64,000 bases of DNA. It comes from Mesaphorura yosii (Eukaryota; Arthropoda; Collembola; Poduromorpha; Tullbergiidae). The notes beneath the pieces were generated by a model. That model worked only from the letters and a program-made list of their open reading frames with translations, had not been told where the DNA came from and searched no databases. This document shows, piece by piece, positions 12,961-34,821 of this stretch. Position 1 is the first letter of the stretch; each line of letters opens with the position of its first letter. The position numbers were made by a program, and so were the translations under genes. The stretch spans positions 310,001-374,000 of the forward strand of contig WIXG01000019.1 of the NCBI GenBank assembly GCA_009869945.1, read 5' to 3'.

Positions 12961-12965
12961 CGTGG
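12961..12965. repeat. Target-site duplication, left copy (CGTGG)
   Basis: CGTGG directly abuts the left inverted terminus; the same five bases directly abut the right terminus at 13607-13611. Five bases and GC-rich fits Transib insertion preference. Confidence 0.8.
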
Positions 12966-13606
12966 CACAGTGGGACAGGGATGGGTGCAAAAGCGCAAAA
13001 AAGGGTCAATCGAATTTTGGTGTTCTACTAATGTTTATCATTTCTACATTCCCCTGGCCGTCGATGGTGAAATTTTTACATTTTTATGTTCACACATGGG
13101 AGTTAACGGTCAGTTGAAATTTTAATCTTACATTGATGCTTATGGGACTTCACAAAGTTCACTGTATTGGCTTAACTTAGCACAGCTAGGAAAAACCAAG
13201 AGTGTCATTTCAGAGTATAGGTAGTGGACTAGCATAATCCATCCCACCGCGTCCCCCCGCCAAACTCTGCAGGAGATATTAAGGCCGAAGTATATGAAGC
13301 AAGTGTGCGTGTTTTTGGATGCGTTGAGTCGTGCATTGAATAAAAAGCGCTGCGATGGCAAGAATAGCTTCACTTCAACGTGATTTTACGAATGGACACA
13401 AAAATTCGATGCCTACGGAAAGTTGGGTTACCTAGTTTTAACCATTCAACCTTGTGCTCGGCTAATATTACCTGCTTCAGCGACTCAAGTTGTAATATCA
13501 TACCCTCAGCTTAAAAATGTGAATTTTAGTCGAAAAACACTAATTTAAAATGTTTCGAGGCGAATTATAATTTATGCGCTTTTTCACCCTTCCCTGTCCC
13601 ACTGTG
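12966..13606. mobile_element. Non-autonomous Transib-like DNA element (MITE)
   Basis: A 641-base element bounded by 32-base terminal inverted repeats (12966-12997 and 13575-13606, 30 of 32 bases identical). Each end begins with CACAGTG. It is flanked by a 5-base target duplication, CGTGG, at 12961-12965 and 13607-13611. Five-base GC-rich duplications together with CACWRTG-type ends are the hallmark of the Transib superfamily, the relatives of RAG1, and CACAGTG is the consensus heptamer of V(D)J recombination signals. No transposase is encoded inside, so it would be mobilised in trans. The assignment to Transib is inferred from the ends and duplication length only; the interior matches nothing I recognise. 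Confidence 0.85.
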
Positions 13607-13611
13607 CGTGG

Positions 13612-27607: not shown

Positions 27608-30498
<2,891 letters not shown>

Positions 30499-31409: not shown

Positions 31410-31547
31410 GGGGGGTTCGGCCGAGCCCGATGTCAAATTCTGTCATGAAATTCATGAATCGTCATTCATCCAGATCTTTTAGCACACAACAAAATAAATC
31501 ATATTCAAAATTAAAGTTGCACTCCTTCGCTTAGCGTTTCAGCCGCC
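31410..31547. promoter_or_regulatory. Putative bidirectional promoter
   Basis: Only 138 bases separate the start codon of the interleaved minus-strand gene (ATG at 31409) from the start codon of SLC66A2 copy B (ATG at 31548). If both starts are right, the two genes share this short region. No TATA box is obvious. The true transcription starts may lie further out if there are 5' UTR introns. Confidence 0.35.
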
Positions 31548-32505
31548 ATGGTCATCGCCACCGCCGCCTCAATTCTCACGTCCTTCGAAGGTCTTTCCAT
31601 CTTGGTCGTCCGCCTCTTCATCATTTTCGGAGGTACGCTCGCGTTCATTCCACAGTACCTGCACATCAACGCGACGGACAACTCGGATGGCTTCTCGAAT
31701 TACGTCTCGCTGGCGCTCATCTCCGCAAGCTGCATTAAAATGTGCTACTGGTTCAGACGCGCGTATGACACGGCGCTCTTTGCTCAGTCGATCGTCAACA
31801 TTGCGACCATGCTGGCCATGCTCGATCTTCGCGTGCGAATCATGAATCGAACGCACTTCATCAGGGATGAGGAACGGCGGAGTCTTTTCAGTCAGTCTTC
31901 CAGCTCTTTTAATCACGCCATATGGCGGCATGGCACGGGCAGACGTGGTGTTGATGACTGAATTCCTTGTAGATGGAAATCTGAGCTACTTTTGGGACTG
32001 GACCGACATGCTATCTTACGTCCAGGCGATCATGCTCTTTATTCTCGCCCTCATCTTCCTCCTCATTCTGTGCGGCGACGTCCCACTCGTCCTGGATCTC
32101 CTTGCGTACGTGGCTGCTGCGGCCGAGACGGCAATGACGATGCCCCAGCTCATCGCCAACTACCGGAGAAAGTCTACGCAAGGCCTCAGCCGAGCAATGG
32201 TATCCGTTTGGATTGGAGCAGACGTGGCGAAGTTGGGCTACCTCGCAATGAACGACGTGCTATTTGCGTGGGTCCTGTGTGGAATTCTTCAGCTAGTCGT
32301 CGACATCGTCATCGGCCTCCAAATTCAGTACTACGGAGACGGGCCCTTATTCCCAGGCGGCGGCGGCTCAGGATCAGGAGTATCTGGCTTCGGCTTTGGC
32401 TCCAACTCTGGCCACGCTCTACCCCGTGCCAACCACGCCCATCAGCATGACCGTGACCGCCATGATGCTCACGACACGCACGACACTCAAGAGCACGAAT
32501 CATAA
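31548..32505 (+). CDS. PQ-loop transporter, SLC66A2 type, copy B (tandem paralogue)
   Basis: Second PQ-loop protein, also 291 residues, in only two exons (31548-31890, 31973-32505; 82-base intron). It retains FGGTLAFIPQYLHI, DGFSNYVSLALISA, YFWDWTDMLSYVQA, AMTMPQLIANYRRKSTQG and IGADVAKLGYL, so both PQ dipeptides are intact. The single intron falls in the same linker as the long intron of copy A, while the two other introns of copy A are absent. The tail is Gly/Ser-rich then His/Asp-rich, which copy A lacks. The ATG has an excellent context (GCCGCCATGG). Clear divergence from copy A makes this an old duplication, and the tail suggests a changed partner or metal binding (inference). Confidence 0.9.
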
Positions 32506-33466: not shown

Positions 33467-34618
33467 TTAGTTGACGCTGGTGATGTAGCACATGTGACAG
33501 CTTAACGGATGCTGTGGACAGTTGTTAGGATGGTGCAACTCGTTTGCCATCGCTGCTTGAAATGCCTTCAGATCGTCCTCAACGCTCTTCTCCAAACGAA
33601 TTGCTATTTCGTCGACACCATCGCCCTCAGCCCTCGGGATGTTCTGCAGGAGAAAGAAAAATGCAATCCGTTCAACCAAGAATTCAGCAAAGCAACTTAA
33701 GGAGTATTAACTTACCAATCCTCTCATGACTGCGTCGACACCAGCGTTCAGGCGAACAACTTCCGGATTTTGCCCTTCCTCGTTCGCAGTTTCAACTTGT
33801 TTCTGCTGTGCCACTGCCGCCGATCTAGGAGCGAGCTCCATTTTTGGAATCGGAGTTGGAATTGGTTCGACCCCAGACATGCTCTCGTCGTCCATCGACA
33901 TAGTGCTCTCAAACATTTCTTGTTTCTCTAAAGGGTGAAGTAAGAATGCATTAGGAGCATGTATTAAGAGTGTTTTAAAAGAAAAGTTGTGCTTACGAAT
34001 GATGTATTGTTCCATAGAAGCCATTGAGTTCATGCAGTGTCCAAAGCCAAGAACCGCCTGTCTGTTGCTGTTGTCCATGTGGCCAGTGACGTTAGGAGTG
34101 GAATTGTTCCCAGCCCCATCGTTCTGAAGTTTTCTTTGTAAATCAGCGATTTTCTCTTTCAATCTGCGGATCTCTGCCCCGAGAGCACTCCTCTTCTTCT
34201 CGGTGTCTGCGAAGAGGAGAAGCCTCGTTAGAAGTCATGCTTGATCAATCAATCATGCTGAGATGTAGGAGCTAATCAATATCGAACCTTGTTTTATGCG
34301 ATGGACAGCCGCTTTGTTGACTCCAAGCTCGGTTGACAAACTGCGTATGGATCTTGATGGGTCCTTTTTCAAAGCTGCCTGAACAAGAGCAACTTTCTCC
34401 TCTGTTCTTGATGACTTTGGTCGTCCACTTCTTGACAAGTCAGCCACTGATCCAGTTTCGTCAAACTTCTTGTTCAGTGCAGCAATCGTTTTCCGTGAGG
34501 GCGGATCAGTGCCAAATTCTTTCTTCCATGCCTTTTGTATGTGTGTTGCCTTCTCGTACATGGAGTACAAACGCACTAAGCGAATGCGCTCCTCCAAACT
34601 CAGCCGCGTCAATGGCAT
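33467..34618 (-). CDS. Transposase-type HTH plus coiled-coil protein
   Basis: Four exons (minus): 34618-34288, 34206-33997, 33927-33716, 33643-33467; 309 residues, all phases consistent. Residues ~5-110 form a bipartite helix-turn-helix of the type at the N-terminus of Tc1/mariner-IS630 transposases (DUF4817-like): SLEERIRLVRLY, then ETGSVADLSRSGRPKSSRT (the linker between the two HTH units) and SIRSLSTELGVNKAAVHRIK. Exon 2 then encodes a short charged coiled coil (EIRRLKEKIADLQRKLQ) instead of a DDE catalytic domain. The rest is acidic/low-complexity and ends with a Cys/His-containing tail (NCPQHPLSCHMC). No terminal inverted repeats of a transposon surround it. It is likely a DNA-binding protein of transposon origin; its target is unknown. 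Confidence 0.78.
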
Positions 34619-34821
34619 TTTAAGTGTGCTGTGCCTTTAAATCGACAAGAAGGGTAATTATTTTTGGTATTGTCTAACCAGGAATGTGTCCCCTTCTTTA
34701 GAATGCTACTTCCCCTCAGAAAAATAAAAAATTTATAAATGTTCTGAGCTTGGTAATTCAGCACCGAAATATCAAAGAAAGCACGACGGTTGAGATTCGA
34801 AAATGAGTTTAAATGTGAGAT

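Follow-up and report, generated by a model that had tools for sequence, protein, structure and literature searches.

The window analyzed here, a stretch of 64,000 nucleotides of the Mesaphorura yosii genome, contains a short element whose ends start with the heptamer of the recombination signal sequence (RSS) used in V(D)J recombination. This locus raises the question of whether the element belongs to the Transib superfamily, how far the resemblance of its ends to an RSS extends and what these ends share with related elements of the same genome.

Structure of the element

The element, called C19 below, occupies positions 12966-13606 of the window (641 bp, + strand, left being the end with the conserved block described further on). 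The initial annotation had described inverted ends identical at 30 of 32 positions, starting with CACAGTG and with CGTGG on both flanks, and all of this was confirmed at these positions. Over 36 bp the two ends agree at 33 of 36 positions, giving a left terminal inverted repeat at 12966-13001 (+) and a right one at 13571-13606 (-). The heptamer is exactly CACAGTG at both ends, at 12966-12972 on the left and read inward from 13606 on the right, and the 5-bp target-site duplications CGTGG lie at 12961-12965 and 13607-13611 (no strand assigned). To place this pair in its context the whole window was scanned for pairs of inverted 32-mers matching at 28 or more positions, with outer ends no more than about 3 kb apart. 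The nine overlapping register hits obtained all correspond to C19, which is thus the sole inverted pair of such quality in the window, and three windows with bases shuffled in 200-bp blocks gave none. The 641-bp body was said to carry no transposase, and indeed there is no long reading frame in C19, the single stop-to-stop stretch of at least 55 codons being 81 codons long. Nothing was found in the window with Rfam (at gathering scores) or by scanning for tRNAs.

Copies and related elements in the genome

We searched the 93.0 Mb genome (1127 contigs) with C19, labelling each element by its contig, and obtained 16 matches including C19 itself. Other copies therefore exist, among them a second complete one in opposite orientation, C56, which is 92.8% identical and has its own 5-bp duplication, CAATG. 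Partial copies at 89-93% identity were found in C448 (575 bp) and C503 (161 bp), both cut off where their contig ends, and in C794 (189 bp, beginning with its contig), right-part matches at 92% in C87 and C765, a fragment at 81% in C1071 and three weaker matches at 71-72% in C643, C232 and C362. The five further matches are inverted ends matching each other. Since several copies are truncated by a contig end, the assembly seemingly breaks at these repeats and the counts are lower bounds. Lacking coding capacity and accompanied by one further complete copy and several partial ones, C19 has the make-up of a non-autonomous, MITE-like element. Its copy number is low for a MITE, which is normal given that one or a few copies are typical of autonomous Transibs according to PMC4411706.

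The high similarity of the two ends had been taken as a sign of recent activity. This is not indicated by the copies: C56, the closest full copy, is identical to C19 in 594 of 640 aligned bases and differs at the other 46 (about 7%), and the family appears not to be freshly active. C19 is probably immobile now. As a separate observation, GGGACAGGG is found at both ends of the window copy and GGGCTAGGG at both ends of C56:93299-93939, which suggests that both ends within a copy change in concert.

A search with the end pattern, allowing up to three mismatches, identified 31 places in the genome (one for the reversed control). Both ends are present in eight elements, four of 641 bp (C19, C56, C87 and C765) and four longer ones (C4, 937 bp; C103, 1074 bp; C381, 1070 bp; C161, 1201 bp). 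Related ends elsewhere in the genome start with CACTATG or CACTGTG. A further Transib-like family with the ends CACTATGGGATAAGG was also observed in C643 (L046), at two places in C362 (L048 and L067), in C232 (L047) and in C93 (L066); the C643 element measures 663 bp and is flanked by the duplication CACAG, and a C362 element measures 674 bp and has no duplication.

Target sites

Clean 5-bp duplications flank three of the 11 two-ended elements considered here (C19, CGTGG; C56, CAATG; C643). In five others the duplication is a near match or has another length: GCATCT is present twice around C381 (6 bp), four of five bases match around C103 and C765, and C161 has a 4-bp duplication. The fifth, C4:109315-110251 (L022), has CTCGG on both sides, one base off each tip, so that its duplication seems shifted. 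The remaining three (C87, C362 and C906) have none. We also examined the 5-mers that precede 28 ends, taking one end per element and leaving out C331 and C232 because their heptamer is altered. These 5-mers are 61% GC, with C as first base in 17 of 28 (binomial P 1.5e-5, assuming 45% GC) and G as last base in 20 of 28 (P 5e-8 under the same assumption). The same C-first, G-last preference is seen in fly Transibs, hopper and transib2 of D. melanogaster being reported to make 5-bp duplications at the target motif CCANTGG (PMC3276498). Both the GC-leaning 5-bp duplication and the CAC-type heptamer at the terminal repeats that characterize Transibs were thus found. No empty site was found in the M. 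yosii assembly itself, in which the flanks of C19 are single-copy.

Transposase and superfamily assignment

C19 has no transposase of its own, so its membership of a superfamily rests on its ends, its duplications and a chain of shared DNA that runs through two hybrid elements. The first link of this chain is C884, which starts with CACTATGGGACAGGGTTGGG and bears transposase exons whose translations match the HzTransib transposase (Helicoverpa zea; PDB 6pqn_A) with E-values of 1.6e-18, 7.1e-22 and 1.7e-11; no Pfam model scored above cut-off for these three fragments. The hybrids, C87:202656-203296 and C765:3956-4596, match C884 over their first 293 bp (94%) and 292 bp (91%), respectively, and from about position 268-271 onward they match C19 at about 92%, in a part that corresponds to 13233-13606 (+) of the window. 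The junction of the two lineages lies near a sequence that both have in common. C87 and C765 agree with each other at 593 of 641 positions without any gap and lie on different contigs, which suggests that the hybrid itself moved or was duplicated. Since they share DNA with both C19 and C884, the hybrids tie the window element to a transposase-bearing Transib. Among the copies found, no transposase-bearing one shares the whole length of C19.

Most of a transposase is also found in C906, a 3203-bp element with the ends CACAGTG and CACTGTG, of which 324 residues match 6pqn_A at 1e-49 and whose left end resembles C19 at positions 23-111 (71%). The catalytic residues of HzTransib are D126, D225 and E436 (PMC6941560). 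By our own counting from these residues on the alignments, the context of the first catalytic Asp, WGFDG in HzTransib, reads WGFYG in C906, whereas C884 lacks the exon that bears this residue; both elements therefore differ from HzTransib, as does C19 with no transposase at all. Further transposase fragments were found in C815, C580, C940 and C629. None of the six was shown to be complete and intact, which gives no support to recent activity either, and C906 comes nearest to it; an intact transposase could be hidden by the exon-wise search and the broken assembly. In addition, part of C103 and of C381 can be aligned, at 72-75%, with the C-terminal transposase region of C884 and C906, although a PDB search with the translation of this part alone gave no significant match (best E 0.19). 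The RAG1 Pfam model had no match in the genome, but it had none in 14 control genomes either.

The transposase that characterizes Transib and the RAG1 core was thus found outside C19 itself, in C884 (through the hybrids) and in C906, and the transposase encoded by the elements joined by shared DNA is that of Transib and not of another superfamily. The assignment to a RAGL or ProtoRAG-type transposon instead of a Transib is highly improbable, although CACTATG is the ProtoRAG heptamer as given in PMC8289069, the 5-bp duplications would fit and one C884 exon matches RAG1L (6b40_A, 1.9e-5). This same exon has a much stronger match to HzTransib (1.7e-11), and for the other exons the E-values were meaningful with HzTransib only. 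It is just as improbable that C19 is a non-autonomous member of some other superfamily whose ends are of the CAC type, for instance CMC (CACTA, Mirage, Chapaev): the related ends CACTATG and CACTGTG do recall CACTA-type ends by eye, but the cleanest duplications (C19, C56 and C643) are 5 bp long and not 2-4 bp as in CMC elements, and the transposase of the linked elements is that of Transib. The table in PMC9033116 likewise gives duplications of 2-4 bp for CACTA elements and of 5 bp for those of Transib.

The proposal of a non-autonomous Transib with CACAGTG ends is thus supported by the copies, the duplications and the transposase in linked elements, and we assign C19 with high confidence to the Transib superfamily as a non-autonomous, MITE-like member. 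Its ends, copies, duplications and target preference, and the DNA that it shares with a transposase-bearing Transib, are direct observations. It would have arisen by internal deletion, with the transposase supplied by another Transib, presumably of the C884 or C906 type. This transposase would pair both ends and cut just outside CACAGTG, possibly by way of hairpins, as reported for HzTransib and RAG, and cut-and-paste insertion into a 5-bp target would then leave the flanking duplication.

As an element C19 is ordinary, a Transib family with the exact RSS heptamer at both ends. The Transib-N elements, that is, the non-autonomous Transib families, are what we take to be the closest known kind. 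They have in common with C19 a CAC-type heptamer, symmetric ends, 5-bp duplications, CANTG-like targets and relatives with a Transib transposase. C19 differs from them by the exact CACAGTG at both ends, the hybrids with another Transib lineage and a left-end block at about 264 bp. A named family for C19 may already exist in Repbase or Dfam.

Resemblance to the recombination signal sequence

CACAGTG is the RSS consensus heptamer (PMC8289069). The initial annotation had further pointed to a nonamer at the left end, and GCAAAAAAG does follow the heptamer of C19 after a 22-base spacer, matching ACAAAAACC at 6 of 9 positions. The position and the count stand, but not their significance, the match being near chance: P is 0.107 when spacers of 11-13 and 22-24 bases are allowed and 0.055 for spacers of 20-22. 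With spacers of 11-13 or 22-24 bases, twelve ends match at 5-6 of 9 positions, as do shuffled sequences in 6-42% of trials. When only spacers 20-22 are considered, all 12 ends match best at 22, though at just 4-6 of 9 positions, and shuffles equal the ends in 4-56% of trials (5.5% for C19 left, 4.4% for C503). Because the ends are related and match at only 4-6 of 9 positions, this uniform spacer gives no independent support, and the nonamer pattern at spacer 22 would be a weak hint at most. A 12/23 pair was not found in C19, the exact spacer of 12 bases giving 3 and 4 of 9 matches and that of 23 giving 5 and 3 of 9. C19 therefore carries a heptamer identical to that of the V(D)J RSS and differs from it by a near-chance nonamer and symmetric ends. 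This fits the account in PMC8289069, where the ends of most Transib families are described as symmetric, with a heptamer but hardly any nonamer or none; a figure legend in PMC8355894 mentions nonamer-like sequences at symmetric spacers of 20-22 bp in Transibs.

A conserved region at the left end

Beyond the known kind, the conserved left end of C19 offers one modest lead. The left ends of five lineages (C19, C884, C103, C906 and C643/C362) can be aligned almost without gaps over some 290 bp (the C643 row begins two bases inside the tip), whereas the right ends align with many more gaps. In C19 this non-coding region, nearly collinear with the four other lineages, spans 12966-13257 (+). Ungapped identity at positions 41-292 is 37-60% at best offsets of -2 to +2, as compared with 26% for shuffles, the weakest pair being C103 with C906 (37%). 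Even when shuffles were allowed the best of 25 offsets, 0 of 200 reached the real identity in each of the 10 pairs. A neighbouring offset is nearly as good in some pairs, so small indels exist. A coding origin of the collinear region was rejected, since stops are present in all six frames in 10 of 10 copies tested.

The left region is closed by a 29-bp block, CTACCAAAATCCWTCCCACSSCGTCCCCC, which lies at 13229-13257 (+) in C19, 263 bp from the left tip and with two mismatches to the pattern. Allowing up to three mismatches, the block pattern occurs 18 times in the genome (0 for the reversed control), including three new places, C447, C93 and C362:141-169, each with a CAC-heptamer end 257-263 bp away. 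The distance from block to tip could be measured in 16 of the 18, C331 having lost its tip and C448 reaching the contig end first; all lie at 257-266 bp and 14 at 263-266 bp, counting C232, whose first base is G instead of C. These 16 copies share ancestry, so that the independent comparison is of about five lineages in one genome. Weaker forms of the block are found in C884 (264 bp, four mismatches) and C906 (262 bp, eight mismatches). By eye the block might pass for the terminal repeat in inverted form, but the local score did not support this: it was ordinary in three of five lineages, and in the remaining two about 5% of shuffles attained it.

In both C906 and C940 the left region precedes the transposase frame, the ATG of C906 following the block by about 305 bp. 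The plainest reading is therefore a mere promoter or leader of the transposase, kept in deletion derivatives with no role in movement, and it is towards this reading that we lean, slightly. Against it, elements without a full transposase retain the block, all eight two-ended elements found by their ends alone bearing it. Such retention may however be passive in deletion derivatives, and in C545 the block has decayed (seven mismatches). Variation within families (counted without C447) is slightly lower in the block in three of them (A, 5.6% versus 7.5-10.1%; B, 4.5% versus 5.9-7.9%; C, 3.4% versus 6.0-7.5%) and higher in the fourth (D, 11.5% versus 6.8-10.0%), which is compatible with a promoter or leader and does not decide the role of the block.

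More tentatively, the left 290 bp or so, of near-fixed length and with a GC-rich block at its end, might be a second cis-acting module for movement, an idea that we regard as rather unlikely. Such a module would conceivably serve in the pairing of the ends or in telling left from right, which we put forward with equal reserve. It would then resemble the internal recognition or enhancer sites known in P elements and Sleeping Beauty. If true, the module would set two similar ends apart with no need of a 12/23 spacer rule, and would bear on how RAG-related transposases distinguish their ends, near the origin of that rule. No internal Transib motif was found in the literature examined, to which the founding paper (PMC1131882) and Repbase do not belong, and we do not claim that such a motif is unreported.

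Other features of the window

An open frame at 34253-34636 (-) encodes a DUF4817 helix-turn-helix domain (PF16087, E 2.9e-8), which is frequent among transposon-related proteins. Two PQ-loop membrane-protein frames (PF04193, E 8.5e-12 and 1.3e-4) are found about 3 kb apart at 28426-28830 and 31515-31961 (+) and are perhaps a tandem pair.
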